In this document: piece by piece, positions 1,309 to 61,179 of the stretch | How positions within the stretch are numbered: the first letter of the stretch is position 1 | How the letters are laid out: every line of letters starts with the position of its first letter | NCBI RefSeq assembly: GCF_020595125.1 | Contig: NZ_JACNMS010000003.1 | Coordinates: 186,001 to 250,000, forward strand | Direction: 5' to 3' | Source: Jeotgalibacillus aurantiacus | GTDB taxonomy: Bacteria > Bacillota > Bacilli > Bacillales > Jeotgalibacillaceae | DNA: 64,000 nt | Position numbers and translations under genes: made by a program | The notes under the pieces: model-generated | Seen by the model: the letters and a program-made list of their open reading frames with translations, nothing else | Told to the model about the DNA's origin: nothing | Databases searched by the model: none

Positions 1309-1495
1309 TGTACTGTTCACGGCGGTTTTTGTATCGAATCAATTATTTATTGTCATGTTTCAGGAAATATATGTATTGTTTCAGCTGTTAATTGTATCGT
1401 TCCGTTCTCAGAGTGGCATTTTTGTTATGTTTGAACTTTGATATGTAACGTTCACGATCAGATTTGTACTGTTTCAAAATAGAATTGTATCGTTT
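1309..1495 (-). repeat. Family A 4+5 array, copy 1 (nine units, 21-bp pitch)
   Basis: Nine degenerate copies of TGTATCGTTC (on the minus strand GAACGATACA) start at 1309, 1330, 1351, 1372, 1393, 1423, 1444, 1465 and 1486. Every step is 21 bp except one of 30 bp (1393 to 1423). Read on the minus strand this is four units, the long step, then five units. The same spacing recurs at 17369, 21752 and 30019. It lies in the 678-bp gene-free stretch 1186-1863, which also holds elements at 1198-1285, 1513-1544 and 1581-1768; I see no gene there. Confidence 0.85.
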
Positions 1496-1512
1496 GGTGT
1501 TAAGCACATTCT

Positions 1513-1544
1513 CGTGTAGAGGTTGAGCTGTCCCTGAACTCTAC
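1513..1544. repeat. Family C hairpin (GTAGAG...CTCTAC)
   Basis: GTAGAGGTT at 1515-1523 pairs with AACTCTAC at 1537-1544 around a GCTGTCCC loop. It belongs to the group of ~35-bp palindromes seen after several genes (21023, 27241, 54222, 58376). Here it lies between two arrays rather than directly after a gene. Confidence 0.55.
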
Positions 1545-1580
1545 CTGTCGAATTCGTGCCAAAATGGTCGTGTGACGAGT

Positions 1581-1768
1581 GATGGAATCGTGTTCAGTTG
1601 TGAAGGGATTCCGTCTGGTTGTGAGGGAATTGACATTACGGTCTGAAGGAAAACAGTAGCGTGTGAGGCCTAGTGAAGGAATTAATTTTTCAAAAGAAGG
1701 AATCAACATCTCAAAAGCCTGAATGATTTTCCAGAAAGAAGGTATTGTTAGCGGTTGTGATGGAATTC
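1581..1768 (+). repeat. Family B 4+5 array, copy 1 (nine units)
   Basis: Units related to GTGAAGGAAT (counted from the G of GAAGG or its variants) start at 1581, 1602, 1623, 1645, 1675, 1696, 1717, 1738 and 1759. Steps are 21 bp, with one of 22 bp and one of 30 bp, the latter between units four and five. First and last cores are 178 bp apart, as in the three other B arrays at 22031, 40821 and 60992. Between this array and the next gene (1769-1863) I see only GC-rich sequence with CCGCGG boxes. Confidence 0.85.
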
Positions 1769-1863
1769 CGCGGCGGACGGTCCTGGCCAACAGTGTAGTG
1801 TAACCCGTTCCCGCGGCGCACGTCACAGCCAGCAGTTGCTCCTCATTCCGCGTCAACCCCGCC

Positions 1864-2418
1864 TCACCCCAAACGCTTCCTCTCCGCAACTGGTGGATAC
1901 TCCGTCAGCAGCCCTTCATAGATCAATACAGTCTGATCTGATTCCCTGAAATCATTCGGTTCAACAAGCGCGGGAAGCTTATCCCAGAGTCTGATGTCTG
2001 CGCGGTGCAAAATGTCTGCGACAAACTGTGAACAGAAATACATCCCGATTGGCTCAAAGGGCTCCTTCATTGCCACGCCAAAAACACCCAGTAAATTATA
2101 AATCATTTTACGGTCATTTCGTTTGAACAGTTCAATCAGTCTGACCACCTTGCTGTACTGGCGGTCTGTGACCTCAATTTCATAGACGGCACAGGTGGTT
2201 TTCGGAAAGTGTTTATAGGTGCCATAAAGCACATCTTCCTGTACAAAACCGCCATTTAAGGGGTTATTAGGATTTTTTCGCCCGAAGCTATATAATTGAA
2301 TTAGCTCTGCATCTAATGAGAGAGAGGAATGGTTGTAGGGGGCTTTTGTGTATTTTTTAATGGTTTTGGTGAAGATCGTTCCCGTGTCTGATAACAGGAT
2401 ATAAATCTTTTTAGCCAT
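1864..2418 (-). CDS. Permuted papain-like (YiiX/NlpC-P60 superfamily) protein
   Basis: A protein of 184 residues with the two landmarks of circularly permuted NlpC/P60-like enzymes: an early His in APYNHSSLSL (His30) and a late Cys in GMYFCSQFVADIL (Cys129). Such proteins act as amidases, thioesterases or lipid-modifying enzymes; the substrate is unknown. No signal peptide is seen, so a cytoplasmic location is likely. AAAGGAGTG precedes the ATG on the minus strand. The next gene is divergent, with only 17 bases between starts, so the promoters must overlap. Confidence 0.7.
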   Translation of the reverse strand: MAKKIYILLSDTGTIFTKTIKKYTKAPYNHSSLSLDAELIQLYSFGRKNPNNPLNGGFVQEDVLYGTYKHFPKTTCAVYEIEVTDRQYSKVVRLIELFKRNDRKMIYNLLGVFGVAMKEPFEPIGMYFCSQFVADILHRADIRLWDKLPALVEPNDFRESDQTVLIYEGLLTEYPPVAERKRLG

Positions 2419-2435
2419 GGGATGTCACTCCTTTT

Positions 2436-3404
2436 ATGAATGGGGCTGTCAGTATGAATGATATATTTCAATACATATACTTTATTTTCCTTCTTTTAAT
2501 ATCGGTCAGTTTGCTCGTCTCGTTGATTACCTTTTATCAAAAGAGAAAAAATCATGGAATCAATAAATATGATGAGCTTGTAATCCGGACACGTCTCTGG
2601 TGGGGGATGGCTGTGATCTTCTGTTTGTCGATCGCCTTTCATCCGAATGTATCGCTCATTTCATTAATGATCTTATGTTTTATGGCCTTAAAAGAGTATT
2701 TCTCCATGATGGATACGCGAAAGCAGGACCGTCGTATTTTTATCTGGGCCTACCTGGCGATCCCGCTTAATTTTTATTGGATTTATATTGGCTGGTATGG
2801 CATGTTTATTGTCTTTATCCCGATCTATGTGTTTTTGTTTCTGCCGCTGGCCCGTATTTTCAGAGGCGGAAGTATCGGCTTTTTAAAGTCGGTCAGTGTG
2901 ACGCAATGGGGACTGATGCTGATGGTGTTCGGGATCAGCCACCTCGCCCTTTTTGCAAAAATGCCTGAGATCACGCGGCACGATGTCACGATCGCGACGC
3001 AATACGGGGCGTTAATGGTGTTGTATCTTGTTCCTCTCACACAAGTAAATGATGTCGTGCATTACATGGTGTCTAAAAAGTTTGGCAGAAGAAAAGTGCT
3101 GACGGCTGCAAATCCTAATCTTACATGGGAGGGGTTTGTGTGCGGCGTCATTGCAACGATTCTTTTATCCATAGTCATCGCACCCTATATCACGCCGATG
3201 TCGCTCGGTTTCAGTATCGTATCCGGTCTGATCATCGGGGTAACCGGGTTTTTTGGAACGCTCGTTGTGTCTGTGTTAAAGCGGAACTTCTTCTTCCGTG
3301 AAAACGGGGGTAAAGTGGCAGAGAGCAAGTTTATTAATAAAATAGACAGCCTGACCTATACGGCACCAGTGTTTTTTCATCTTGTTTACTATTATATTTT
3401 CTAA
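2436..3404 (+). CDS. Phosphatidate cytidylyltransferase-like (CdsA/YnbB-type) membrane protein
   Basis: About eight membrane segments over 322 residues. The region GRRKVLTAANPNLTWEGF and the C-terminal SVLKRNFFFRENGG resemble the CdsA family, which makes CDP-diacylglycerol from phosphatidate and CTP. The classical signature (KR...KD...HGG..DR.D) is only partly kept: after KR the sequence runs into KFINKIDSLTYTAP, so activity is not certain and YnbB-like paralogues are the better comparison. The start is uncertain: ATG at 2454 is preceded by a weak GGGG site, whereas 2436 has none. Confidence 0.65.
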   Translation: MNGAVSMNDIFQYIYFIFLLLISVSLLVSLITFYQKRKNHGINKYDELVIRTRLWWGMAVIFCLSIAFHPNVSLISLMILCFMALKEYFSMMDTRKQDRRIFIWAYLAIPLNFYWIYIGWYGMFIVFIPIYVFLFLPLARIFRGGSIGFLKSVSVTQWGLMLMVFGISHLALFAKMPEITRHDVTIATQYGALMVLYLVPLTQVNDVVHYMVSKKFGRRKVLTAANPNLTWEGFVCGVIATILLSIVIAPYITPMSLGFSIVSGLIIGVTGFFGTLVVSVLKRNFFFRENGGKVAESKFINKIDSLTYTAPVFFHLVYYYIF

Positions 3405-3476
3405 CGAATAAAAAGCTTCCTGTTGGACTGACGCAGCATTGTCTCTTTATCATAAAGTCAGACTGGAGGGAACCGC

Positions 3477-4250
3477 ATGCTGATTGATCGTTTTCTTACA
3501 TTTCTGGATGTAGAGAAAAAGGAGCCGTCTCTTTCTTATTTAAATGAATTGATCCACGCTCATCAAACAAAGGTTAGGTGGGAGACACTATCTAAGTTCA
3601 TTGATTATGAGAACTTAAGTCCGGCAGACGCTTATCTGCCATCAATGGACTCTTACATTGATCGAATTATCAATAAAGGGGTAGGGGGTACCTGTTATAC
3701 ACTGGCAAGAGGGTTTCATTTGCTTCTTAGTGAGCTTGGTTTTGATGTGAATTATTTATTCATGGAACCGAATCATTTATGCCTGAGAGTGGATCTCGAA
3801 GGAGAACCTTATTACGTGGATGTTGGATACAGTGCGCCCTTATTTAAAGCCTATCCTATGTTTGAATCCTTCGAGGTTGTGGCGCCGGCAGAAACGTTTA
3901 CTTACACAGTAATGGAGTCAAAGATACTCGTCGAAAGAAATCCTGGTCCGACTAAAACCCTTAACCCTGAGCCTGTTTCATGGTCGGAAATTGAAGCGCA
4001 TATTAAAGGAACCTATGACTGGAAAGATGGATTTGCTTTTCAATCGTTAAAGCTTTTTGGATACCTGGATGGGGTTCCTGTATCGTTGCGTAATCATGAG
4101 CTTCGCATTTTCAAAGAATCAGGCTTCGAGGATCAAGTGCTGAATCCGGAAGAGGTCATGGGTTGGGTGAGAAAATTTGATGTTAATGAGGAATTTTACA
4201 AAAAAGCTGTGAGTATTTTTGTAAAAAGAAAAAATGTTAAACCATACTGA
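3477..4250 (+). CDS. Arylamine N-acetyltransferase family protein
   Basis: A protein of 257 residues carrying the NAT catalytic triad: Cys73 in GVGGTCYTLARGF, His100 in EPNHLCLRV and Asp115 in YYVDVGYSAP, with the 15-residue His-Asp spacing normal for the family. These enzymes move an acetyl or larger acyl group from CoA to arylamines or other amines in the cytoplasm. A GGAGGG site lies just before the ATG. It stands alone between the CdsA-like gene and the copper block, and a hairpin follows its stop. Confidence 0.85.
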   Translation: MLIDRFLTFLDVEKKEPSLSYLNELIHAHQTKVRWETLSKFIDYENLSPADAYLPSMDSYIDRIINKGVGGTCYTLARGFHLLLSELGFDVNYLFMEPNHLCLRVDLEGEPYYVDVGYSAPLFKAYPMFESFEVVAPAETFTYTVMESKILVERNPGPTKTLNPEPVSWSEIEAHIKGTYDWKDGFAFQSLKLFGYLDGVPVSLRNHELRIFKESGFEDQVLNPEEVMGWVRKFDVNEEFYKKAVSIFVKRKNVKPY

Positions 4251-4256
4251 TACATC

Positions 4257-4288
4257 CAGCCCTTGATCCGAAAGGTTTTCAGGGGCTG
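4257..4288 (+). terminator. Probable terminator after the acetyltransferase gene
   Basis: CAGCCC at 4257 pairs with GGGCTG ending at 4288, with further TTGA/TTCA pairing inside. AAAATATTTTT follows rather than a clean T-run, so strength is uncertain. Confidence 0.45.
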
Positions 4289-4310
4289 AAAATATTTTTG
4301 AGCTTTCCTG

Positions 4311-4339
4311 TTTACAAAAAAGTAAAAGGGGTGTATATT
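4311..4339 (+). promoter_or_regulatory. Sigma-A-type promoter of the thioredoxin gene
   Basis: TTTACA at 4311-4316 and TATATT at 4334-4339 are separated by 17 bp. The CsoR-like palindrome at 4343-4361 starts four bases after the -10 box and would cover the transcription start. Confidence 0.65.
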
Positions 4340-4342
4340 GAA

Positions 4343-4361
4343 TATACCCACATGGGGTATA
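4343..4361. promoter_or_regulatory. CsoR-like copper operator 1
   Basis: TATACCC at 4343-4349 and GGGTATA at 4355-4361 form a perfect inverted repeat around five bases. This matches the layout of CsoR operators in front of Bacillus copZA. It is one of four such sites in 4 kb. Confidence 0.7.
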
Positions 4362-4380
4362 TAGAGAAGGAGGTGAAGAA

Positions 4381-4701
4381 ATGGAGCAAATAACAACAAA
4401 TCAATTTTACGATCAAATGAAACTGATGGATCAACCTGTTGTTTTGAAGTTTTCAGCAGACTGGTGTTCAGGCTGTCGTCAAATTGCCCCAGTGGCTGAA
4501 GCAGTATCAGAGGAATATAGTGATTCAGTCAAATTCTACGAGGTTAATGTGGATCAGGAACCTGAATTAGCTGAACAGTTCGGTGTCATGAGTCTGCCAA
4601 CCTTCATTGCATTTAAAGATGGTGAAGAGACAGGCAGAGAGGTTGCACCTTCTGCTTCAGAAGACACATTAAAAGCGTTTATAAAAAATTTTAAAAAATA
4701 A
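4381..4701 (+). CDS. Thioredoxin-family protein, CSGC active site
   Basis: A thioredoxin fold of 106 residues with the active-site motif WCSGC (Cys29 and Cys32), in place of the usual WCGPC, and the cis-Pro loop MSLPTF. There is no signal peptide, so it works in the cytoplasm. The operator at 4343-4361 and its position before copZ suggest that it protects or reduces thiols under copper stress; this is inference. GGAGGTGAAGAA precedes the ATG. Its stop codon abuts a second CsoR-like palindrome, so copZ can be started independently. Confidence 0.85.
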   Translation: MEQITTNQFYDQMKLMDQPVVLKFSADWCSGCRQIAPVAEAVSEEYSDSVKFYEVNVDQEPELAEQFGVMSLPTFIAFKDGEETGREVAPSASEDTLKAFIKNFKK

Positions 4702-4720
4702 TATACCCTATAGTGGTATA
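4702..4720. promoter_or_regulatory. CsoR-like copper operator 2
   Basis: TATACCC at 4702-4708 faces TGGTATA at 4714-4720, one mismatch from a perfect palindrome. It lies right after the thioredoxin stop codon and before copZ, next to an AT-rich TAATATA that could be a -10 box. Confidence 0.65.
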
Positions 4721-4736
4721 TATGGAGGGATTTATG

Positions 4737-4946
4737 ATGACAAATCAAACATTACAGGTAAAAGGAATGTCTTGTGGGCATTGCGTGAAATCAATTGAAG
4801 GAAATGTTGGAGAGCTCCAGGGTGTAGAAAGTGTAAAAGTTAACCTGTCTTCAGGAAAAGTGGATGTTGTGTTTCAATCCTCAGAGGTTAAATTAGAGCA
4901 GATCATTGCAACCATTGAAGATTCAGGCTATGAGGTCCAGCAATAA
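4737..4946 (+). CDS. copZ: Copper chaperone CopZ
   Basis: A single heavy-metal-associated domain of 69 residues, the usual CopZ length. The Cu(I)-binding motif is GMSCGHC near residues 10-16, and the protein ends in a typical IEDSGYEVQQ strand. CopZ carries Cu(I) in the cytoplasm and hands it to the CopA ATPase encoded next. The ATG at 4737 is chosen because GGAGGG lies seven bases before it; the ATG at 4734 is also possible. A strong hairpin follows, and copA has its own operator, so the two genes may be separate transcripts, unlike the usual copZA operon. Confidence 0.93.
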   Translation: MTNQTLQVKGMSCGHCVKSIEGNVGELQGVESVKVNLSSGKVDVVFQSSEVKLEQIIATIEDSGYEVQQ

Positions 4947-4955
4947 AAACAAAGT

Positions 4956-4989
4956 AAATCGTGCTGCATAAAGTCAGCACGATTTATTT
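4956..4989 (+). terminator. Terminator between copZ and copA
   Basis: AAATCGTGCTG at 4956-4966 and CAGCACGATTT at 4975-4985 form a perfect 11-bp stem with an 8-base loop, followed by ATTTTA. Confidence 0.8.
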
Positions 4990-4999
4990 TAAAATAATA

Positions 5000-5018
5000 T
5001 ATACCCCATATGGGTATA
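5000..5018. promoter_or_regulatory. CsoR-like copper operator 3
   Basis: TATACCC at 5000-5006 and GGGTATA at 5012-5018 make a perfect inverted repeat directly upstream of copA, overlapping an AT-rich TAATATAT stretch that may be the -10 region. Confidence 0.7.
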
Positions 5019-5034
5019 TAAGAGGTGAAGAACT

Positions 5035-8350: not shown

Positions 8351-8354
8351 GGTT

Positions 8355-16851: not shown

Positions 16852-17325
16852 ATGAATATTTTTCTTGAAGCGTTGAATGATGCTGATTTAAAAGCAGTTT
16901 ATGAGTTTGAAAAAATGAACCGTGCTTATTTCGCCCGGTTTATTCCGGATAGAGGCGATGACTATTTTGAACAGGACTTTTTCCGGGAGCAGTACCAGTC
17001 TCTGTTAAATGAGCAGCTTGAAGGACAGTCTGAATTTTATCTGATCAAAAACGACCGTGGCCGGGTTATTGGCCGGATGAATGTGGTGGATATTAAAAAT
17101 GCACGTGGATTTCTCGGCTATCGCATTGGAGAGTCAGAGGCTGGAAAAGGCGTTGCGTCTTCTGCGCTTGAGCAGCTTCTGAGGAAAGAGCTGAGTGTGA
17201 CGAGAATGATTGGTAAAACAACGCCGGACAATATCGGCTCCCAGCGCGTCATGTAAAAGAACGGCTTCCGCAGAACACATGAGGACGATGACTTTGTCTA
17301 TTTTGAATGGATGAAGATGAACTGA
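16852..17325 (+). pseudogene. GNAT acetyltransferase gene with a premature stop
   Basis: The frame encodes a RimJ/RimL-like acetyltransferase up to NIGSQRVM, then has TAA at 17254-17256, and continues in the same frame as KNGFRRTHEDDDFVYFEWMKMN to a TGA at 17325. Intact relatives read SQRVLEKNGF here, so one base change (probably GAA to TAA) breaks the gene after about 135 residues. The lost part is the last strand of the fold. Readthrough or a sequencing error are alternatives. Confidence 0.75.
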
Positions 17326-17360
17326 GCGTAGTGTGGGGGTCTGTCCCTGGGTCTATGCTA
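17325..17360. repeat. Family C hairpin, degenerate
   Basis: AGCGTAG pairs with CTATGCT around GGGTCTGTCCC. It starts at the stop codon of the broken acetyltransferase gene. Confidence 0.5.
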
Positions 17361-17368
17361 AATGGAAT

Positions 17369-17555
17369 TGTCCTGTTCACAGCAGTTTTTGGATCGATTC
17401 AATTTTTTATTGTTGCGTTCCAGAAAATATATGTATCGTTTCAGATTTTTATTGTATCGTTCACCTTTTACCAGAGAGTTTTTGTTATGTTCGACCCTTG
17501 AATTGTAACGTTCACCATCATAATTGTACTGTTTCAAAATGGAAATGTATCGTTC
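17369..17555 (-). repeat. Family A 4+5 array, copy 2 (nine units, 21-bp pitch)
   Basis: Cores related to TGTATCGTTC start at 17369, 17390, 17411, 17432, 17453, 17483, 17504, 17525 and 17546: 21-bp steps with one of 30 bp. The total length of 187 bp equals that of the other A arrays. On the minus strand one frame stays open through the array and reads as heptads such as ERYNKNL and KRYIYFL. It ends 54 bp before the -35 box of the ileS leader. Confidence 0.85.
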
Positions 17556-17638: not shown

Positions 17639-17668
17639 ATGTCTAACAAAACCCAATGTTTAACATTC

Positions 17669-17919
17669 GATGACGAGAAAGAGTAGCGATGGTGCTGAAG
17701 CAAAGAGAGCTGACGGTTGGTGTGAGTCAGTGTTCAGGCGATTGTGAAGATCCTCTCCGAGAAGCGGTGCTGAGTTTGTTTAGGTGCCGACGGGATTCCG
17801 CCGTTACAAGGAACGCGTATGATGGTACGTTGAATGAGAGTCCGGGATGTTTTCCGGGAATCAGGGTGGTAACGCGGGCTAAGCTCGTCCCTAACGTTTG
17901 TTTAGGGGCGGGCTTTTTT
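17669..17919 (+). promoter_or_regulatory. T-box riboswitch of ileS
   Basis: A leader with the full T-box layout: AGTA and GAA of the S-turn in stem I, GAGAGCTGACGGTTGGTG distal region, the T-box AGGGTGGTAACGCGG at 17863-17877, and a terminator (GCTCGTCCCTAA/TTAGGGGCGGGC, 17883-17913) with six T. The likely specifier is ATC at 17750-17752, one base after GAA, fitting isoleucine. The TGGT of the T-box bulge would pair with an ACCA tRNA end. Uncharged tRNA-Ile should allow readthrough into ileS. Confidence 0.92.
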
Positions 17920-20900: not shown

Positions 20901-21018
20901 CACCCACCAGCAGCTACTCGAAAACAACCTGCTGCTGAAAACCATCAAATTCGAACAAAAAAATGATATGAAAACACTAGAATTTGATGGGCATAGCGTA
21001 AAGATTGCCATAGAATAA
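17944..21018 (+). CDS. ileS: Isoleucyl-tRNA synthetase, eukaryote-like (IleRS2) type
   Basis: A class I synthetase of 1024 residues, about 100 longer than the common bacterial enzyme and similar in make-up to IleRS2/MupA-type proteins. HAGH (residues 54-57) is the HIGH motif and KMSKS is at about 590; [10 protein letters not shown] and CPSC/CEDCG zinc-type motifs are present. It joins isoleucine to tRNA-Ile. AAAGGAGG before 17944 sets the start; the longer in-frame extension lies inside the T-box and is rejected. IleRS2 enzymes are less sensitive to mupirocin than IleRS1; the normal HxGH order is kept here, unlike the swapped motif reported in hyper-resistant MupA. Confidence 0.93.
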
Positions 21019-21022
21019 AAAG

Positions 21023-21057
21023 AGTGTAGACATGGGGTCTGTCCCTATGTCTACACT
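21023..21057. terminator. Family C hairpin, likely ileS terminator
   Basis: AGTGTAGACAT pairs with ATGTCTACACT around GGGGTCTGTCCC, four bases after the ileS stop codon. No T-run follows. Confidence 0.55.
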
Positions 21058-21083
21058 ACTACTTCATTAAGGGGGGAGAATGA

Positions 21084-21650: not shown

Positions 21651-21698
21651 GTAAGCATGTCAAGTGAATCAAGATTTATGTCCCTGTGTTTCTTTTAG

Positions 21699-21749
21699 TT
21701 TGCCGCGGAATCAGCTGTTTGTGATCAGTCAGTTGGGCTTCGCGTCAAA
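21699..21749. repeat. Flanking module F, copy 1
   Basis: A 51-bp segment bounded by TTTGCCGCG and CGCGTCAAA (imperfect inverted ends). It lies three bases before A array copy 3. Related modules are at 21956, 29963 and 30238. Confidence 0.6.
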
Positions 21750-21751
21750 AG

Positions 21752-21938
21752 GATCAATACAAATCATTTGTGGGACAATACAATAATAATTTGAAACAGT
21801 ACAAAAAGCTTTTGCAACGAGACAATTAAGGTCGTTCTAATTGTCAACGATACAAATATTTTTTAGAACAGAACATTTATTTAATGGCTCGATACATAAA
21901 AAAATTGAAACGATTGAATAAATGATGAGAACGATACA
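21752..21938 (+). repeat. Family A 4+5 array, copy 3 (nine units, 21-bp pitch)
   Basis: Cores related to GAACGATACA end at 21761, 21782, 21803, 21824, 21854, 21875, 21896, 21917 and 21938. The single 30-bp step falls between units four and five. The length is 187 bp. Internal units, for example GAAACGATTGAATAAATGAT as unit eight, are shared with copy 4. It lies in the 661-bp gene-free stretch 21651-22311, which is filled by array A, two F modules, array B and a hairpin. Confidence 0.85.
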
Positions 21939-21955
21939 AAAGCAAGCCGATTAAG

Positions 21956-22006
21956 TTTACCGCGAAATCAACTGCTCGCAATCAGCCAGTCGGTCTTCGC
22001 GTCAAA
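21956..22006. repeat. Flanking module F, copy 2
   Basis: Exactly 51 bp between TTTACCGCG and CGCGTCAAA, like copy 1. It separates A array copy 3 from B array copy 2. Confidence 0.6.
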
Positions 22007-22030
22007 CGGTCAATGGGGTTGTTACGAAGT

Positions 22031-22218
22031 GAGGGAATTATTGTTAGTAGTGAAGGAATTCGGATAAGAGAACGAAGGAATCCAAGTCTGGATTGAAGGG
22101 AAAACAACGGCTCGAAGGTCTAGTGAGGGAATAAAAATTCAGAAAGAAGGAATCGAAATTTGAAACGAGGGAATTAATTTTTCAAAAGCCTGAATAACTC
22201 AAGCGAGTGAAGGAATCC
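22031..22218 (+). repeat. Family B 4+5 array, copy 2 (nine units)
   Basis: Units start at 22031, 22052, 22074, 22095, 22125, 22146, 22167, 22188 and 22209. One step is 22 bp and the step between units four and five is 30 bp; first and last cores are 178 bp apart. Unit sequences align one to one with the B arrays at 1581, 40821 and 60992. Confidence 0.85.
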
Positions 22219-22256
22219 AAATCAGGCCCGTCAATCCCATCTGTCTATTTAAAATA

Positions 22257-29624: not shown

Positions 29625-29907
29625 TAAAAAACCCCACCTCCAAGACTGTTGTCTTGAGGGCGAGATTTGATTCGCGGTGCCACCTCAGTTTGTTCATATG
29701 TCGCCATATCAACCTTTTCAGGTACAGCTTTATAGGTATACCCAAGCTCGATAACGGAAGCAGCCGTTCTGCCATCACCCATTCAGGATCCGGCAAAATG
29801 CTCAGAGGCTTGATTCAATAACCGCCATCCTGCTCCTTTTCACCAGTCGTCGGAGCTCTCTTTTGAGGATTCAGGTTACCTACTCTTCTCTTCATCGCAA
29901 ATAAATT
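29625..29907 (-). promoter_or_regulatory. T-box riboswitch of the MFS transporter gene
   Basis: Read on the minus strand: TATGAT -10 box (29914-29919), AGTA and GAA of stem I, the T-box AGGTGGCACCGCG (29673-29685) and a terminator CCTCAAGAC/GTCTTGGAGG with six T (about 29628-29660). The T-box bulge TGGC would pair with a tRNA ending GCCA. After GAA the specifier reads TCA (Ser) directly, or CAA (Gln) with the one-base offset seen in the ileS leader. Both tRNAs can carry a G discriminator, so the amino acid is unresolved. Confidence 0.85.
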
Positions 29908-29962
29908 TCATTGATCATACCACAGGATGGAAATGACTGTCATCTGTTTTTTGGATTTTTAG

Positions 29963-30014
29963 TTTGCCGCGGAAAGGGTTGTTTTACGAACGGCTGGGGT
30001 GGTGCCGCGTCAAA
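29963..30014. repeat. Flanking module F, copy 3
   Basis: 52 bp bounded by TTTGCCGCG and CGCGTCAAA. It lies four bases before A array copy 4. Confidence 0.6.
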
Positions 30015-30018
30015 CAGG

Positions 30019-30205
30019 CAACGATACAAATCATTTATGGAACGATACATTAAACATTTGAAACAGTACAAAAAGCTTTTCCAACGTGACAATTAACCGG
30101 GCTTTGAGTGTTAACGATACAAATATCTGGTAGAACAGAACATATATTTGACGGAACGATACATAAAAAAATTGAAACGATTGAATAAATGATGAGAACG
30201 ATACA
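30019..30205 (+). repeat. Family A 4+5 array, copy 4 (nine units, 21-bp pitch)
   Basis: Cores related to GAACGATACA end at 30028, 30049, 30070, 30091, 30121, 30142, 30163, 30184 and 30205. Steps are 21 bp with one of 30 bp between units four and five; length 187 bp. It is closely similar to copy 3, including the last two units, and like it is bracketed by F modules. Confidence 0.85.
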
Positions 30206-30237
30206 AAAGCTCAGCCGGCCCGCCCGCCCGCCCCCAG

Positions 30238-30285
30238 TTTGCCGCGAAACCATCCCATCATCCACCAACCCATCTCCGCGTCAAA
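30238..30285. repeat. Flanking module F, copy 4
   Basis: 48 bp bounded by TTTGCCGCG and CGCGTCAAA, on the far side of A array copy 4. A GC-rich CCCGCC run separates array and module. Confidence 0.55.
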
Positions 30286-30290
30286 CCAAC

Positions 30291-40719: not shown

Positions 40720-40820
40720 ATTGTAATGGGTGTTACTTTTTCAGACGACAAAGATGATTTGCCGCGAAGCTCATTCAGGGTGATCAGGAATATGGCTCCA
40801 CGTCCAGGCGTAGCTGGATT

Positions 40821-41008
40821 GAAGGAATCATGTTCAGAAGTGAAGGGAATCTGTTTAAGAGTGAAGGAATCGAACCCATGGAATGAAGGGAATAGAGTGC
40901 GTGAAGAGGCTAGTGAAGGAATAAAGTGACGGAAAGAAGGGATTCAATTCTGGAAAGAAGGATAAAAAAACCAGAACGATTGAATACCTGAACTGAGTGA
41001 AGGAATCC
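40821..41008 (+). repeat. Family B 4+5 array, copy 3 (nine units)
   Basis: Units start at 40821, 40842, 40863, 40885, 40915, 40936, 40957, 40978 and 40999; the 30-bp step is between units four and five, and first and last cores are 178 bp apart. A degraded F-like end (TTTGCCGCG, 40758-40766) lies upstream. It occupies most of the 460-bp gap 40678-41137; the rest shows only the terminator and AT/GC-mixed sequence. Confidence 0.85.
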
Positions 41009-41137
41009 CAGTGACGCGCCAAAAACACCCTATGTCCACCCCCGCACAATTTATTCCAAAACCCGTCACCAATCCACTCCTCTTTGCATTCACTAAACTA
41101 AACCAAACCATGCCCTCGTTAGAAGGAGGCACAGCGT

Positions 41138-52694: not shown

Positions 52695-54221
52695 ATGGAA
52701 ATTTTAGCAGCGTTATCGATCATCATTCCGATTTTGGTCGTGCTTGCGATCATTGGTGCGGTTGTGTTTGTTTATTACAAGATCCGCTACAGAACGGCGC
52801 GTTCCAACCAGGCACTTATTATTACAGGACCTAAACTAGGTGATCCGAAGAAAGAGACGAATATTTTTACAGACAATGAAGGCCGTTCGATGAAAATCAT
52901 CCGTGGTGGCGGGCATCTTCTCCGCATGCACCAGACAGCAACACCGGTTGAACTGACATCGTTTCAGCTGAAGCTGACAACGCCACGTGTTTATACAAAT
53001 GGTGGTGTGCCGATCGTGGCTGATGCGGTTGCGATGGTAAAGGTGGCAGACACGCTGAAAGGGATCGCCAACTATGCCGAGCAGTTCCTTGGGAAGAAAT
53101 CAGCAGAGCTTGAAGAAGAAATTGCAGAGGTACTCAGTGCGAATCTTCGTGCCATCCTTTCGAAAATGACTGTTGAGCAAATCAACGAAGACCGCGAATC
53201 ATTTAACGCACAAGTAACAGAGGTTGCGCAAAAGCAGCTCGATGACATGGGGTTCCGTATCACATCCCTTGGGCTGACTGACCTTCGCGATGCTGACAGT
53301 GAAAATGGTTATTTAGAGAACCTCGGCCGTCCACGTATCGCAGAAGTTCGCAAGCTGGCTGAAATTGCAGAAGCCAATTCAGAAAAAGAAACACGTATTC
53401 AGCGTGCAAACTCTGATAAAGAGGCGAAAGAAGAAGAATACAAGCGCCAGACTGAAATTGCCGCTGCTCAAAAAGAGAAGGATCTAAAAGATGCAGCGAT
53501 CAAGGAAGAAACAGAACGTGCCCGTGCGAAATCGGAGCAATCGTATACGCTAGAAAAAGCTAAGCTTGATAAAGAGGTTCAGGAAGAAGAACTGATGCTG
53601 GTCGCAAAACGAAAAGAAGAAGAGCTGAGAATCCAGCAGCTTGAGCGTTCACGTCAGGTACAGATTGAAGAGGAAGAAAACAAGATCCGTAAGGCGAAAG
53701 CCGATGCAGATTACTACTCTGTTACCCGACAGGCGGAAGCAGAAGCGCGTAAAGCGGAAATTGACGGGGAAGCCCAGGCACGTATCAAACGTGAAGCCGG
53801 TCTGGCAGAGGCTCAGGTTATTCTAGAGCGCGGTAAGGCGGAAGCCGAATCAAGACGTCTATTGACAGAAGCGATCGCAGAGCACGGTGAAGTCATCCTT
53901 GCCGAAAAACTGATCGACATGCTGCCGATTTACGCTGAGAAAATTGCGAAACCGCTTGAAAATATCGAATCCGTTAAAATTCTCGATACAGGTGGTGGGA
54001 ACGGAGTCGCATCCTACGGAAAAAGCATCACCCAAACCATGGTTGAACTCCAGGAACCACTCAAAGAACTGACAGGGATTGACGTCTCCAAGCTCCTTTC
54101 CGACATGGTAAACCGCGGTAACACGCACACTGTGGTCAACAACAGTGGAGACACACCGGCTCAGAAAACAGTTACAACCCAAAAATCAGATGAAGCCGCA
54201 GCAACAAAGGATAAAGAGTAA
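52695..54221 (+). CDS. floT: Flotillin-like protein FloT
   Basis: A protein of 508 residues: an N-terminal membrane segment (about 5-30), the PHB/SPFH domain (GGGHLLRMHQTATPVELTSFQ to about 200), then a long Glu/Ala/Lys coiled coil (about 220-400) and a C-terminal oligomerisation part. FloT organises membrane microdomains and helps in the response to cell-wall stress. In B. subtilis it is preceded by the NfeD-type yuaF, which is absent here. TAAGGAGG precedes the ATG; a sigma-W-like promoter is upstream. Confidence 0.93.
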   Translation: MEILAALSIIIPILVVLAIIGAVVFVYYKIRYRTARSNQALIITGPKLGDPKKETNIFTDNEGRSMKIIRGGGHLLRMHQTATPVELTSFQLKLTTPRVYTNGGVPIVADAVAMVKVADTLKGIANYAEQFLGKKSAELEEEIAEVLSANLRAILSKMTVEQINEDRESFNAQVTEVAQKQLDDMGFRITSLGLTDLRDADSENGYLENLGRPRIAEVRKLAEIAEANSEKETRIQRANSDKEAKEEEYKRQTEIAAAQKEKDLKDAAIKEETERARAKSEQSYTLEKAKLDKEVQEEELMLVAKRKEEELRIQQLERSRQVQIEEEENKIRKAKADADYYSVTRQAEAEARKAEIDGEAQARIKREAGLAEAQVILERGKAEAESRRLLTEAIAEHGEVILAEKLIDMLPIYAEKIAKPLENIESVKILDTGGGNGVASYGKSITQTMVELQEPLKELTGIDVSKLLSDMVNRGNTHTVVNNSGDTPAQKTVTTQKSDEAAATKDKE

Positions 54222-54256
54222 AGTGTAGACTTAGGCGCTGTCCCAGTGTCTACACT
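54222..54256. repeat. Family C hairpin after floT
   Basis: AGTGTAGAC and GTCTACACT are perfect arms around a GCTGTCCC centre, directly after the stop codon. Confidence 0.65.
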
Positions 54257-54289
54257 AAAAAGCAGTCTTTCTCATGGAAGGCTGCTTTT
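54257..54289. terminator. Bidirectional terminator
   Basis: AAAAGCAG and CTGCTTTT arms with further AGTCTTT/AAGG pairing lie between floT and the converging membrane-protein gene. Confidence 0.75.
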
Positions 54290-55606: not shown

Positions 55607-55699
55607 ATAGGTCTCCTCCTTTAATTTGTAAGTAGAATAGCACAGGCTAAATGCGTTGAAAAGATGATTGCGGTGAAACCGTCCGAAAGGCATGGTAGG

Positions 55700-55738
55700 G
55701 TACTTTTTGGTGCCTATCGCACTTTAAAGTACGTACTT
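55700..55738. promoter_or_regulatory. Candidate HxlR operator
   Basis: GTACTTT at 55700-55706 and AAAGTAC at 55726-55732 are inverted, and AAGTACGTACTT at 55727-55738 is a perfect 12-bp palindrome. They lie between the divergent HxlR and MFS genes. Confidence 0.55.
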
Positions 55739-55827
55739 CCCAAAAGAAATAAACGGGTTCATACTGACAATTGTTCAACATCACGAAAGGCGCCTTCGTG
55801 TTCATTTTCATAGGGAGGAATCAAATC

Positions 55828-57078
55828 ATGACAACTAAAATGAATCAGCCTCCGCAGCAAAAAGGCGGAACGCTTGCTTTATTAGCACTAGCAATCAGTG
55901 CATTTGGCATCGGAACGACTGAATTTGTTCCGGTTGGTCTCTTATCATCCATTTCAGGGGATCTGCAAATATCTATTACATTAGCGGGATTATTGATTTC
56001 AGGATATGCGATCGGGGTAGCGATTGGTGCGCCGGTCTTAACGGCATTAACAGCCAAAATGAGCCGTAAAACATTGCTAATGGCCTTAATGGCTGTATTT
56101 ATTGTAGGTAATGTGGCTGCTGCTATGTCAGACAGCTTTGCGCTGCTGATCGTGGCCCGCTTCATCACTGCATTTTCACATGGAATCTTCTTTTCAATTG
56201 GATCAACGATTGCAGCGGATCTGGTTCCAGCTCATAAACGTGCCAGTGCTATTGCTTTTATGTTCACAGGTTTAACCGTTGCCACTGTGACAGGTGTGCC
56301 GCTTGGAACGTTTATTGGTCAGGCATTTGGATGGAGAGCGACATTTTGGGGTGTGGCGATTCTTGGATTGATCGGGATGGCTGCCAGTGCCCTGCTTGTC
56401 CCGAAGAACCTGAAAGAAGCACCGCCATCATCATTTAAAGATCAATTAGCGATTTTGAGAAATAGCCGTTTAATGCTCGCGTTTGCCATCACGGCCCTTG
56501 GATACGGCGGAACCTTTGTTGCTTTTACGTATTTAACACCGTTATTGGAAAATGTCACAGGCTTCAGTGCGAAATGGGTCAGCGTGATTCTTCTTGCTTA
56601 TGGTGTAGCGGTTGCGATTGGAAATATGATTGGCGGAAAAGCAGCAAATCGCAATCCGTTAAAAGCACTGCTTTGGATGTTTGTTTTTCAGGCAGTCGTG
56701 CTCGTTCTATTAAGTTTGGCAGCACCATTTAAAGTAGCGGGTCTGATCATGATCTTCATGATGGGGTTATTTGCTTTTATGAATGTGCCGGGTCTGCAGG
56801 TGCTTGTTGTCGATCTTGCTGAAAAATATGTACCATCAGCCGTCAACGTCGCATCAGCCCTTAACATAGCAGCATTCAACGTCGGGATCGCCATCGGTTC
56901 CTTCGTCGGCGGACTCATCGTCGACGGAATCGGTCTCATTCATACTCCCTGGATCGGTGCTGTTATGGTAGCGGGTGCCGTATTACTGACAGGAGCATTG
57001 CGCAAAATAGAAAGTGCAACAAGTAAAGAGACCAGAGTTTACGGAAGAACGGGAACAGACTCTGCTCTACGTGAATGA
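55828..57078 (+). CDS. MFS exporter (AraJ/YdhP-like, DHA1 family)
   Basis: A protein of 416 residues with twelve membrane segments. ISAFGIGTTEFVPVGLL in helix 1 and VPLGTFIGQAFGWRATFW (motif C-like) are typical of the AraJ/YdhP exporters of sugars, purines or drugs. GGGAGG precedes ATG 55828. Control by the divergent HxlR gene is likely. The last 12 bases overlap the end of the opposite Lrp gene. Confidence 0.9.
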   Translation: MTTKMNQPPQQKGGTLALLALAISAFGIGTTEFVPVGLLSSISGDLQISITLAGLLISGYAIGVAIGAPVLTALTAKMSRKTLLMALMAVFIVGNVAAAMSDSFALLIVARFITAFSHGIFFSIGSTIAADLVPAHKRASAIAFMFTGLTVATVTGVPLGTFIGQAFGWRATFWGVAILGLIGMAASALLVPKNLKEAPPSSFKDQLAILRNSRLMLAFAITALGYGGTFVAFTYLTPLLENVTGFSAKWVSVILLAYGVAVAIGNMIGGKAANRNPLKALLWMFVFQAVVLVLLSLAAPFKVAGLIMIFMMGLFAFMNVPGLQVLVVDLAEKYVPSAVNVASALNIAAFNVGIAIGSFVGGLIVDGIGLIHTPWIGAVMVAGAVLLTGALRKIESATSKETRVYGRTGTDSALRE

Positions 57079-57480
57079 CTTAATCACAGTCGCAGTCTTA
57101 TATTGAGCATAGCTGCTCAGGTTTTCTAGAAAAGTATTCAGATCATCGTGGCTTGTGAATCTCGTTTCAAGCAGATAACAGGCTTCCCCGGTGGTTTTGA
57201 CATGCTGAACAATGCTTGTTGACTGCTTTTCGATAAAGGCAAGATATTTTGTGTGATCAGGGCTTTGGGTAAATACCTGGATAAAGGCATGAACGGGAAA
57301 GCCGAGCTTCTCGTAGCTTTTTCGCACTGTGTATTTTTCGATCATGCCCTGATCCTCAAGTTTTTGAACACGCGCTGTTGCCGCCTGTCCGGTCAGGTGA
57401 ACTTTCTGACCAAGCTCCTTCATGGTGATCCGGCTATTCCGTTCAAGCTCTTGTAAAATGAGGTAGTCTGTCTGGTCCAT
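57067..57480 (-). CDS. Lrp/AsnC-family transcriptional regulator
   Basis: A protein of 137 residues. N-terminal helix-turn-helix LILQELERNSRITMKELGQKVHLTGQAATARVQKLEDQGMI and a C-terminal RAM-type ligand domain (HAFIQVFTQSPDHTKYLAF). It should bind an amino acid and act on nearby genes, perhaps the divergent metallo-hydrolase gene at 57601. GAAAGGATG precedes ATG 57480. Confidence 0.92.
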   Translation of the reverse strand: MDQTDYLILQELERNSRITMKELGQKVHLTGQAATARVQKLEDQGMIEKYTVRKSYEKLGFPVHAFIQVFTQSPDHTKYLAFIEKQSTSIVQHVKTTGEACYLLETRFTSHDDLNTFLENLSSYAQYKTATVIKSFT

Positions 57481-57600
57481 TCGATAACATCCTTTCAAAA
57501 ATCAAGTGAAATCAACACATTACTTGATTTAGATTATGTACAGCATCCTTCATTAAAGTTTATCCTAAACAGGAACAATCCGAAAAGGAGAAGTGATGAG

Positions 57601-58347
57601 ATGAAGCTGACGCACATTCGTAACGCAACGCTCGTAGTGGAATACGCGGGAAAAACGATTTTAGTGGATCCGTTTTTTGCGGAAAAAGGTTCACTGCCGC
57701 CGTTTCCGAACACACCGAATCAGGATATGAACAATCCGACTGTGGATTTACCGGTTAAGGTTGAGGATCTGTCAAAAGCCGATGCTGTGATCGTCACGCA
57801 CCTGCATGCCGATCATTTTGATGACGCAGCAAAACAGATTTTGCAGAAGGAAACACCTGTTTTTGCGCAAAATGAAGCCGATGCTAAAGTGATACAGGAA
57901 GCCGGTTTTCAGCATGTTTCTGTTCTGGGAGATCGTTCAGATTTTGAAGGGATTCAGCTGAGTAAAACTGCAGGACATCACGGAAAAGGTGAGATTGAAG
58001 AGCGAATGGGAGCTGTATGTGGTGTTGTGTTCAAACATCAGGATGAACAGACGCTCTACATCGCAGGTGATACCATCTGGTGCGATGAAGTTGAAGCGGT
58101 ATTAAAGGAAGTGCAGCCAGACGTAATTGTTTTAAATGCAGGTGCTGCGCAATTTCTTGAAGGCGGACCGATTATCATGGACCAGCACGACGTTCAAAAG
58201 GTAATCGATACAGCACCATCGGCAACCGTGGTCGCAGTCCATCTTGAAGCATTAAACCATTGTGTGCTGACACGTGACCAACTAAAAACACACATCCCGG
58301 ATGAAAAACTCCTTGTCCCAGAAGACGGAGAAGCCTATACATTCTAG
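57601..58347 (+). CDS. Metallo-beta-lactamase-fold hydrolase (YddR-like)
   Basis: A protein of 248 residues with VTHLHADHFDD (His67, His69, Asp71, His72), the zinc site of the fold, plus GHHGKG, the AGDTIW Asp and a late His in AVHLEALNH. It belongs to the UPF0173/YddR-like branch of metal-dependent hydrolases. In B. subtilis yddR lies beside the Lrp-type genes lrpA and lrpB, so the Lrp gene next door fits. GGAGAAGTGATG precedes the ATG. Substrate unknown. Confidence 0.85.
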   Translation: MKLTHIRNATLVVEYAGKTILVDPFFAEKGSLPPFPNTPNQDMNNPTVDLPVKVEDLSKADAVIVTHLHADHFDDAAKQILQKETPVFAQNEADAKVIQEAGFQHVSVLGDRSDFEGIQLSKTAGHHGKGEIEERMGAVCGVVFKHQDEQTLYIAGDTIWCDEVEAVLKEVQPDVIVLNAGAAQFLEGGPIIMDQHDVQKVIDTAPSATVVAVHLEALNHCVLTRDQLKTHIPDEKLLVPEDGEAYTF

Positions 58348-58350
58348 AAA

Positions 58351-58376
58351 AAGCACCGCTGCGGCGGTGTTTTTTT
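58351..58376 (+). terminator. Terminator of the metallo-hydrolase gene
   Basis: GCACCGC pairs with GCGGTG(T) across a short loop, followed by seven T. Confidence 0.8.
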
Positions 58377-58407
58377 GTAGAGTTAGGGACAGACCCCCAA
58401 CTCTACA
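58376..58407. repeat. Family C hairpin (GTAGAGTT...AACTCTAC)
   Basis: TGTAGAGTT and AACTCTACA are perfect arms around GGGACAGACCCC, directly after a normal terminator. This shows that family C hairpins are not needed for termination here. Confidence 0.65.
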
Positions 58408-58441
58408 CACTATGGTACAATTATCCAAAGGATGTGATCGG

Positions 58442-59107
58442 ATGAAGGCGGTTTTGTTTGATTTTGATGGAACGCTTTTGGATCGGGATGCTTCTGTTAA
58501 GAGGTTTGTTGCTGATCAATATGATCGATTGCCGCAAGTGAATATGAAGGTTGATAAAGATACATATATGAACCGTTTTATTGAATTGGATGCTCATGGA
58601 TATGTGTGGAAAGATCGGGTTTATGAGCAGCTTACAGAGGAATTTCGGATTGAAATGACTGCAGATGCATTGTTGCAGGACTATTTAAAAGAATTCCCGA
58701 ATCACTGTGTTCCTGTCAAAGGGTTGTATGAAATGCTGGAACATTTAAAAAGGAAATCTTATAAAATCGGCATGATTACAAACGGCTATGGGGATTTTCA
58801 GATGGCAAATATTCGTGCGCTTGGGATTGAAGGGGCATTTGATGTCATCCTGATTTCCGAATGGGAAAAGCTCCGGAAGCCCGACAGCCGTATCTTTCTG
58901 CGCGCACTTGAAAAGCTTGATGTGGAAGCTGAAGAGGCTGTGTTTGTTGGGGATCATCCTGAAAATGATAGTCAAGCAGCGAAGCGTGTTGGGATGAAAG
59001 CTGTGTTGGTTCAGAGTGCATTTCGACAGGATGAAGATGCGGGTGATGTGATAATGGATTTGAGAGAGTTGGAGGAAGTACTGCGTAAAGGTTCTTGTGG
59101 AGCATAA
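58442..59107 (+). CDS. HAD-superfamily hydrolase
   Basis: A protein of 221 residues with HAD motif I FDFDGTLLDRD (nucleophile Asp7, Asp9), motif II MITNGY, Lys in KLRKPDSRIF, and motif IV FVGDHPENDSQAAKRVGMKAV. The cap domain lies between motifs I and II, as in phosphoglycolate-phosphatase-like enzymes. Probably a small-molecule phosphatase. ATG 58442 follows AAAGGATGTGATCGG; the longer frame runs through a terminator and is rejected. Confidence 0.9.
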   Translation: MKAVLFDFDGTLLDRDASVKRFVADQYDRLPQVNMKVDKDTYMNRFIELDAHGYVWKDRVYEQLTEEFRIEMTADALLQDYLKEFPNHCVPVKGLYEMLEHLKRKSYKIGMITNGYGDFQMANIRALGIEGAFDVILISEWEKLRKPDSRIFLRALEKLDVEAEEAVFVGDHPENDSQAAKRVGMKAVLVQSAFRQDEDAGDVIMDLRELEEVLRKGSCGA

Positions 59108-59197
59108 TTAGTCCCAAAACTGGTCTTCTACACAAACCTAAGCGGGTTCTTGCAACTATCCCTATTAAATTGGAAATCATTAAAGATGGTGTAAATA

Positions 59198-60436
59198 ATG
59201 ATGTTGAAAAATAAAAACTTTCTCGTATTATGGCTGGGACAGCTGGCGACGATTTTTGGTAACCGTTTCAGTGATGTCGCAATCCCGTTAATTGTGTTAG
59301 AGCTTACAGGATCACCTTTGCAGGCAGCGCTCGTAGCGGTCTGCATGCAGGCACCTTCTTTTTTGTTCGCTTTGCCTGCCGGTCAGTGGATTGAAGGTAA
59401 GCTGAAAAAGTACGTGGCGATTGGGGCGGAGTCTATCAGCTTTCTTGTCATGGCTACACTTGCTTTTCTGGTCTGGGAAGATGGTTTGACTACGGGTGTG
59501 CTGGCTGTGGGTTTATTTATATTGGGTGTCTCCACCCTTTATTTTCGGATCGCTTTTAGTGCGATGATACCTGGTATTGTTGGTCGGGAAAATCTCTTGA
59601 GAGCCAACACTTATTTTGAAGGGGCGGATGCTGTCAGTACATTTGCAGGTCCGGTGCTCGCCGGAGGAGTGCTGACTTTGTATGGCACTGCAATGGCTTT
59701 ATCCATTGATGCATTAACCTATTTGTTATCGTTATTCGGTGTCATACTTGTTGTATTTAAAGAAAAGAACCAGACAAGGCGTATAAAGACAAAGGTAATC
59801 GCTGAGTATAAGCTGTCTTTGAAAAGTATTCGGTTTTTATTCGCCAATCCATACCAGCGATTCATCTCACTTCAGCACATACTCCTTAATTTTACGACAG
59901 TAACGGTTACGCTGACAGTCATCTTTTTAACGGATCAGACGCTAAATTTTACGCCATTTGAAATCGGCATCGTCTTATCAGGAGCTGGTATTGGAAATAT
60001 CATTGGAGTGTGGCTGATGGTACAGGTGGAAGGTTACTCCTGGCGAAGGCTATATAGCACGCTGCTCATCATATCGGGTCTCGGGCTCGTGCTTGTTTTC
60101 AGCGGATTGTCAGTGTGGCTGATGGCACTCGGTATGCTTATCTTCGACGGAGCGCTGTCGATGGCTTTTGTGGTTAATGGTTCAGCTCGTCAGGCTGTCA
60201 CGCCGGATGCTTTTTTAGCGAGGCTGGCAGGTGGAAGTATTCTGCTGAGTGGCATTGTTGTGGTCAGCGGACAGCTTTTCTCAGGAAGTATATCAGAAGC
60301 GGTCTCACCTGTGATTCCGTTAATAATCTGCAGCATACTTCTATTAACCGGAGGACTTTATGCACTTCGTTTTCGCTATGGACGTGGTGCTGTATCTACA
60401 CTTACTCCGGTTCATTCAGGTTTGGAAAATAAGTAA
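59198..60436 (+). CDS. MFS transporter (MFS_3/EntS-like)
   Basis: A protein of 412 residues with about twelve membrane segments. WLGQLATIFGNRFSDVAIPLIVLELTGS is the typical start of the group and GQWIEGKLKKYV replaces motif A. It is a more distant relative of the transporters at 28383 and 47943. The ribosome site is weak (GATGGTG). An acetyltransferase gene follows after 15 bases. Confidence 0.88.
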   Translation: MMLKNKNFLVLWLGQLATIFGNRFSDVAIPLIVLELTGSPLQAALVAVCMQAPSFLFALPAGQWIEGKLKKYVAIGAESISFLVMATLAFLVWEDGLTTGVLAVGLFILGVSTLYFRIAFSAMIPGIVGRENLLRANTYFEGADAVSTFAGPVLAGGVLTLYGTAMALSIDALTYLLSLFGVILVVFKEKNQTRRIKTKVIAEYKLSLKSIRFLFANPYQRFISLQHILLNFTTVTVTLTVIFLTDQTLNFTPFEIGIVLSGAGIGNIIGVWLMVQVEGYSWRRLYSTLLIISGLGLVLVFSGLSVWLMALGMLIFDGALSMAFVVNGSARQAVTPDAFLARLAGGSILLSGIVVVSGQLFSGSISEAVSPVIPLIICSILLLTGGLYALRFRYGRGAVSTLTPVHSGLENK

Positions 60437-60451
60437 TGTGGAGAGGTCACA

Positions 60452-61036
60452 ATGAAGATAGAGACAATGAAATATATCCATTTAGAACAAACAGATCAGC
60501 TTTTTTCAGAATGTCTCCGCGATCTTTTAAATCGCGAGGGACTGCGTCATGATCAGCAGCTTTTTGATGAGGAGGTCGGGCGGCTTAAGCGAATGGCGCG
60601 TGATTCTTTGGAGGGTGAGCAGATAAGATTTTTTGCAGCTTTTGATGGGGATTCGGTTGTCGGAACGGTTGCGCTGTTTGAACCGGGCGAGCTGATGAAA
60701 TGCGGATTGACACCTGAGCCTGGCAGGTTAGAGGTTGGTTGCGTTTATATCCACCCTGATCACCAGAGGCAAGGGGTCGCTCAATCCTTACTGGCATTTG
60801 CAGAAGAGGAGCTTTTACGTCTCGGGCACGACTTTTATTATCTCGATGCCGGGTTTAAAAGCTCTCAGCAATACTGGGTGAGTCGCTTTGGGAATGCAGA
60901 TGTGTTGCTGAGGGACCACTGGGGACAGGGAGCCCATCATATGATCTGGAAAAGATGGCTTGGTGGGGGAGAAGTACGCTCATTTGGATGTGATGGAAAA
61001 GTGAGCGTGAATGAAGGGATTCGTGGAGTGGAATGA
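60452..61036 (+). CDS. GNAT acetyltransferase with a repeat-derived C-terminus
   Basis: A protein of 194 residues. LEVGCVYIHPDHQRQGVAQSLLAFAEEELL is the acetyl-CoA site, followed by LDAGFKSSQQYWVSRFG. The fold appears complete by MIWKRWLGG (about residue 170). The last 15 codons, including VSVNEGIRGVE, are encoded by the first two units of B array copy 4, and the stop codon lies at the third unit. GGAGAGG precedes the ATG. Confidence 0.85.
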   Translation: MKIETMKYIHLEQTDQLFSECLRDLLNREGLRHDQQLFDEEVGRLKRMARDSLEGEQIRFFAAFDGDSVVGTVALFEPGELMKCGLTPEPGRLEVGCVYIHPDHQRQGVAQSLLAFAEEELLRLGHDFYYLDAGFKSSQQYWVSRFGNADVLLRDHWGQGAHHMIWKRWLGGGEVRSFGCDGKVSVNEGIRGVE

Positions 61037-61179
61037 AGGAATCACCGGGCCTTGTGAAGGGAAAAGAGTCCGGCCAAGAGGTTTTGATGGAATTAATTTT
61101 CCATAAGAGTGAAATCATTTTTGAAACGAGTGAATAAAAATTTCAAACGATCGAATAACTCCCCCGAGTGAAGAAATTC
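60992..61179 (+). repeat. Family B 4+5 array, copy 4 (nine units)
   Basis: Units start at 60992, 61013, 61035, 61056, 61086, 61107, 61128, 61149 and 61170. One step is 22 bp, the step between units four and five is 30 bp and first to last is 178 bp. Its first two units lie inside the 3' end of the acetyltransferase gene, so the array probably arrived at or was always part of the gene end. Confidence 0.83.

Follow-up and report, generated by a model that had tools for sequence, protein, structure and literature searches.

Why should two repeat families with different core sequences be laid out on one plan? The question is raised by a stretch of 64,000 nucleotides from Jeotgalibacillus aurantiacus (contig NZ_JACNMS010000003.1, positions 186,001 to 250,000; hereafter the window), which was placed by means of PF00216 in a genome that totals 3.5 Mb over 19 contigs. 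Between its genes the window carries eight arrays of nine units each, four of family A and four of family B (Table 1). An original prediction made from the sequence alone had described both families as four units, a step of 30 base pairs (bp) and five further units at 21-bp pitch, and we confirm this layout for all eight arrays. The B unit consists of AACGATACAA plus 11 bases and the A unit of AGTGAAGGAAT plus 10; for comparison, each 21-bp repeat is divided into an 11-bp core and a 10-bp spacer. The steps within B arrays are 21, 21, 21, 30, 21, 21, 21 and 21, and those within A arrays are the same except for a 22 at one of steps 2-3.

Chains of units at this fixed spacing scored 55-59 at the B arrays and 57-61 at the A arrays, compared with 37 (B) and 45 (A) for the best of 30 dinucleotide-shuffled windows and with 35 (B) and 47 (A) at the top-scoring places of the real window away from the arrays. 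The same arrays are recovered when no core is specified. A free-core scan, which accepts any nine 11-bp segments that are mutually alike at the 4+5 spacing, returned the eight arrays as its eight top places on the + strand of the window (scores 67-84); the next place scored 64, and six mononucleotide-shuffled stretches of 20 kb reached 58-61.

The two families have more than their spacing in common. Unit 8 is CGATTGAAT in A copy 3 and B copy 3, as predicted, and also in B copy 4, although A copy 4, for which the same had been claimed, carries CGATCGAAT instead. Two A/B pairs do lie side by side in the window, but the gap within each pair is 77-83 bp by the boundaries used here and not the 86-93 bp first given.

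Spacing across the genome and in other core families

Genome-wide, 36 A and 28 B arrays were parsed. The original prediction had made much depend on whether the 30-bp step is missing from most copies; it is present in 63 of these 64 arrays and is 29 bp in the other. The remaining steps are nearly all 21, with one 22 among steps 2-3 in A. At unit 8, 15 of the 36 A and 9 of the 28 B arrays match CGATTGAAT with no more than one mismatch; at the other unit positions 0-8 and 0-4 do so, respectively. Distant copies are 78% (A) and 71% (B) identical in their cores and 42-44% in their spacers; for A, the spacers of distant copies are 42% identical and unlike unit positions 30%. The B arrays come from 30 model matches at E <= 0.001, of which 28 were used (one of the others is A-type and one overlaps another match). 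The A model gave 56 matches at E <= 0.05, some on B arrays; among the 45 listed, 3 fall on B arrays, and 36 of the remaining 42 were used for the steps. The six omitted were partial or aberrant for the parser, although two of them (C6:120100 and C3:156457) do read 4-30-5, and a third (C2:658655) is weak and lies on the contig that holds dif.

Because the parser accepts deviations of up to 2 bp from the expected 21 or 30 (middle step 28-32), it limits what the step count can show, and the free-core profile is the unbiased test of spacing. At a threshold of 72, with places in long open frames excluded, a middle step of 30 was found at 8 places in the window, and 200 kb of the congener G007 yielded 11. 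Steps of 29 (4 and 7) and 31 (7 and 7) recovered largely the same places, and every other step within 20-40 gave 0-2 places in these two stretches.

Further families with other cores on the same spacing, which the original prediction had anticipated, were found both in G007 and in the genome of J. aurantiacus itself. In G007 the free-core scan returned GTGACCCGAAAT arrays at 69055, 81964, 87975, 145287 and 165033, mostly 4+4, together with less regular AAAGGTGATRGATAAA and TGAATCAAT arrays. The J. aurantiacus genome contains TGTCGATAG arrays with a middle step of 30-31 bp (for example at C1:757480, 928429 and 966485 and at C6:10268) and five- or six-unit runs with yet other cores. By eye, many of the cores look like GA-NNN-AAT. 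The free-core matches also include coding low-complexity repeats, recognised by eye near C1:319027, C1:878793 and G007:2877901. A-type middle steps are 28-30 in G007 and G009, among the arrays listed and setting aside those split by inserts, and three parsed arrays of G011 have middle steps of 30, 30 and 19. A pattern scan gave at least 80 loci; of the seven viewed, six look coding by eye and one, from J. alimentarius (L098), is an array that reads 4-29-5 by eye.

Constraint, exchange and distribution

Comparison with the congener G004 reveals which parts of the arrays are constrained. In the part of that genome that was fetched, 22 of the 64 parsed arrays could be paired with an ortholog; 18 pairs entered the clean statistics and four were excluded. 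Substitutions affect 90 of 1781 core positions (5.05%) versus 210 of 1780 spacer positions (11.80%; p = 2e-13), and 610 of 5099 positions in the 150-bp flanks (11.96%). There were 10 insertions or deletions (indels) in 3561 array columns versus 60 in 5099 flank columns, making them about four-fold rarer within the arrays (p = 2e-6). The comparison with the flanks should be conservative because these hold some coding DNA.

Whole arrays have also been exchanged at a single site. Position 30020 of the window is occupied in J. aurantiacus (G000) by a B array and in G004 by one of family A, flanked in both by the same two hairpins, which belong to a palindromic element that we call H (Table 1). By eye, the G004 array and the bases beside its H elements look like the A array at the 22-kb locus. 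Of the H half-sites in the stretches fetched from the J. aurantiacus genome, which were chosen around arrays, 24 of 31 have a parsed array no more than 70 bp away, as do 9 of 9 in the window; H elements may mediate array exchange. One B array is tandemly duplicated in G000 relative to G004, and B pairs less than 30 kb apart are 70.5% identical versus 57.6% for distant pairs. A pairs show no such local similarity (61.0% near, 60.0% far). The B array at C6:11747 of G000 (L034) has about 180 bp more than its G004 ortholog (L031). In G007, inserts of about 1.55 kb interrupt two A-type arrays, at C1:2954208-2955942 and C1:298046-299782 (L280, L281), and part of one insert looks transposase-like by eye, and a TTGATGCACTTGGGATCCTGTCC-like repeat stands directly to the right of the A-type arrays L273 and L279.

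Table 1. Repeat arrays and H elements of the window, with positions counted from its first base.
Feature	Position	Strand	Remarks
Family B array 1	1303-1494	-	nine units, 4+30+5
Family A array 1	1578-1770	+	nine units, 4+30+5
Family B array 2	17363-17554	-	
H element	21698-21751		imperfect palindrome TTTGCCGCG...CGCGTCAAA, roughly 50 bp; left of B array 3
Family B array 3	21753-21944	+	unit 8 is CGATTGAAT
H element	21955-22008		between B array 3 and A array 2
Family A array 2	22028-22220	+	about 80 bp downstream of B array 3
H element	29962-30015		left of B array 4
Family B array 4	30020-30211	+	A array at the orthologous site of G004
H element	30237-30287		right of B array 4
Family A array 3	40818-41010	+	unit 8 is CGATTGAAT
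Family A array 4	~60989-61181	+	48-bp overlap with the end of predicted gene 60452-61036

Arrays are present in 7 of 12 congeners (G000, G004, G006, G007, G008, G009 and G011) and B arrays in 2 of the 12. A-type models found none in the other five, where a free-core scan of the + strand over 294 kb around the ParB genes returned nothing above 64, the level that the window itself reaches outside its arrays. Across the order, a model designated R3 matched 47 of 397 genomes at 1e-4, the seven array-bearing congeners included; inspection of 12 loci by eye showed ten phased arrays, mostly lacking the 4+5 plan, and two coding-like stretches. With the B model, 8 of the 397 genomes matched, and five of six further loci viewed are arrays by eye. 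By eye, other genera of the order have arrays at a pitch of about 19-22 bp, with other cores and mostly without 4+5. Long AACGGCACATAAACGGTG-type arrays without 4+5, at a pitch of about 20-22 bp, occur in another family of the order (L004, L014 and L017 in G019; L308 and L313 in G064). A pattern of two B cores spaced by 21 bp had four matches on viral contigs, two of which show one and the same stretch, and no further B array was seen in these matches by eye. Our search of the open-licence literature returned no description of such arrays.

Position on the chromosome

The arrays crowd towards the origin of replication. In G007 (two contigs) dnaA lies at 856 and dif at 1,725,813 on a 3.5-Mb contig, and 21 of 26 A-type arrays fall within the first 40% of the replichores and one in the last third. 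These 26 were counted from 43 matches, of which 2 are second halves of split arrays and 15 weaker ones were dropped; none of the 43 is on the second contig. Near the origin of G007, free-core matches of at least 68 number 14 in a stretch of 200 kb and 1 in another of 60 kb (about ten clear 4+5 or 4+4 arrays by eye); there are none in 160 kb around dif and none in 80 kb of the second contig. In J. aurantiacus the 160 kb near dnaA contain 15 such matches, of which 12 fall outside 500-base frames, although only about five are clear 4+5 arrays by eye and the rest are shorter runs and one coding-like stretch; there are none in 160 kb around dif and one in 80 kb further along that contig. The 934-kb dif contig holds 0 of the 64 parsed arrays, compared with 17 expected under an even spread, and one weak unparsed A match. 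Such crowding into the origin half suggests that the arrays take part in organising or segregating the chromosome. Array polarity in G007 does not follow replication significantly (18 of 26, p = 0.08).

Other intergenic elements share the window. The hairpin repeat GTGTAGAC..GGGTCTGTCCC..GTCTACAC stands between genes at 17317-17360, 21015-21058 and 54214-54257; its pattern has 41 matches in the J. aurantiacus genome, and the dif contig has none of them. Two T-box leaders (RF00230), at 17661-17895 (+) and 29653-29904 (-), are all that Rfam returns from the window at gathering thresholds, and the product of the gene that follows the first matches class I tRNA synthetases.

Proposed phased platforms and competing explanations

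The two-turn pitch, one-face phasing, fixed step between two blocks, conserved cores, freer spacers and lack of RNA structure make a multi-subunit protein platform the simplest reading, and we put at about even the chance that the arrays are phased platforms bound by related proteins that differ in specificity. A sequence-specific protein would occupy each array, with one subunit or dimer per 11-bp core. Since 21 bp is two helical turns, the subunits of a block would share one face of the DNA, and the 30-bp step (~2.9 turns) would fix the angle between the blocks of four and five to give a two-lobed nucleoprotein complex. The geometry would stay constant because subunit-subunit contacts set it, and the DNA-contact surface would drift or be exchanged, so that paralogous readers come to differ in their cores. 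Platforms would swap as cassettes, apparently via recombination involving the flanking H repeats, and B copies would also spread locally. The original prediction had proposed common ancestry or one class of reader for the two families, which the 4-30-5 plan, the unit-8 signature, the exchange of A and B at one site and the further cores support, and a phased platform, which is supported by conserved cores, rare indels, absence of RNA structure and non-coding character. The architectural role is one that we infer, since crowding at the origin is not exclusive to the arrays. Tentatively, and with more doubt than confidence, we also consider a geometry-defined origin platform system, in which several mutually distinct array sets coexist per genome and paralogous proteins of diversifying specificity bind 4-30-5 arrays, much like a dispersed centromere of many lineages.

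The closest parallel to such a platform is found in plasmid partition. According to the available portions of PMC9426499 and PMC5016525, type II ParR-parC systems (R1, pSK41) wrap blocks of direct repeats on a ParR superhelix, the pSK41 repeats being 20 bp and those of R1 lying in two regions, and ParR families bind their own parC only; among Clostridium parC families spacing varies too (PMC9426499, available portion). The arrays are likewise direct-repeat blocks in helical phase, but they occur as dozens of dispersed chromosomal copies and keep their spacing constant between families. ParM and ParR genes were not searched for, and the arrays are therefore not classed as a ParR-type centromere; ParR-parC is nevertheless the best model for the way they could work.

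Several observations weigh against a platform. The five congeners in which arrays were not detected imply that any function is dispensable or otherwise fulfilled; some families have only five or six units or a 4+4 layout, and one G011 middle step is 19. The original prediction had looked to a protein family whose presence tracks the arrays, and no reader protein was found among the two families tested, ParB_N and Y1_Tnp: ParB_N has two matches in each of the 12 congeners, a count that does not follow the arrays, and the Y1 transposase family (PF01797) has no match in array-bearing G007 and matches in array-less G002, G003 and G010. The dif contig likewise lacks the intergenic hairpin repeat described above (GTAGAC...CTGTCCC; 41 matches, compared with 9 for the reversed control), and origin bias, which need not mean function, is weakened as proof of it. 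The tandem duplication and the local spread of B look like ordinary repeat behaviour.

These last points would fit selfish dispersed intergenic repeats of the STAR or ERIC kind, whose spacing would serve their own copying enzyme and which would bring the host no gain. The likeness of near B pairs, the duplication in G000, the five congeners without detected arrays, the company of hairpin repeats and the similar chromosomal bias of another repeat all speak for such an origin. We nonetheless judge it unlikely, since cores are conserved at orthologous sites and spacers drift at the flank rate, A copies have no local similarity, terminal inverted repeats were not seen by eye and the Y1 transposase does not track. 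Known repeat classes were also compared. STAR elements of Staphylococcus aureus, in the available portion of PMC3532100, are interspersed intergenic direct repeats, their function not known, with a 14-bp GC-rich consensus T(G/A/T)TGTTG(G/T)GGCCC(C/A), spacers of at least 40 bp and variable copy number; the arrays too are intergenic direct repeats, but their 11-bp cores, 10-bp spacers and mostly constant 4+5 plan at 21-bp pitch differ from that definition, and membership was rejected. The arrays are not REP/REPIN elements with RAYT, as they do not fold, no Y1 transposase tracks them and it is the adjoining H elements that are palindromic. Noc sites are single short palindromes, whereas the arrays are nine-unit direct repeats. 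In Bacillus subtilis, Noc sites are many, chromosomal and scarce in the terminus region (PMC6126333, available portion), and the arrays are likewise many and scarce near the terminus; a ParB/Noc site platform was rejected because no ParB-type protein is extra or missing in any of the 12 congeners.

Could the arrays instead act on transcription or its products? As roadblocks or insulators, they would bind a protein that halts polymerase between mainly converging genes. Gene context was taken from a simple gene caller written for this analysis, after setting aside a predicted gene mostly inside B array 2 (17307-17501, coding score 15); overlap with flanking genes is at most 48 bp among the 64 arrays. 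Of these, 26 lie between convergent and 5 between divergent genes, compared with 61 tandem, 11 convergent and 11 divergent spaces in the window as a whole. Window spaces of at least 200 bp, array-bearing ones included, divide 6, 4 and 2 in that order, however, so that convergent enrichment is not established; the other 33 arrays are in tandem spaces (14 same sense, 19 opposite), there is no fixed orientation relative to genes, and absence from the dif region would be unexpected. We regard roadblocks as improbable. An RNA element acting post-transcriptionally would suit the many arrays 3' of genes, but the same near-even split of sense and antisense in tandem spaces, mean fold z-scores of -0.53 to 0.46 (two families, both strands) and an RNAalifold energy of 0 on both strands for A and B speak against it; RNA structure was rejected, and this account has next to no weight. 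Nor do the arrays encode protein repeats, as any one frame stays open in at most 10 of 36 A and 9 of 28 B arrays. At 10.5 bp the AA/TT power is close to that of spacer-shuffled controls (A 2.19 versus 2.64, B 5.55 versus 5.34), indicating no extra curvature signal from the spacers; it rises above the spacer-shuffled control at 19-20 bp in the A and B arrays of J. aurantiacus.

Plasmid iterons are direct repeats at about two helical turns, and the two-turn blocks of the arrays, which are chromosomal and dispersed, recall them. Decoys that titrate plasmid or phage initiators, in the manner of iteron-like incompatibility arrays, could also account for several cores per genome. A blastn search of 72,556 plasmid and 50,697 phage records with one A and one B array, of limited reach for such diverged repeats, found no match, and unrelated plasmids should not demand one constant geometry for different cores; we think decoys very improbable.

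Repeat families are usually defined by their sequence. In these arrays it is the spacing that is conserved, and one sequence can stand in for another. This points to a scaffold of protein whose DNA specificity can be exchanged, and the reader of the arrays should be findable. If the arrays are selfish, they would represent a repeat held in strict helical phase; if instead the origin half of the chromosome is organised by them, they would constitute a new layer of nucleoid architecture.

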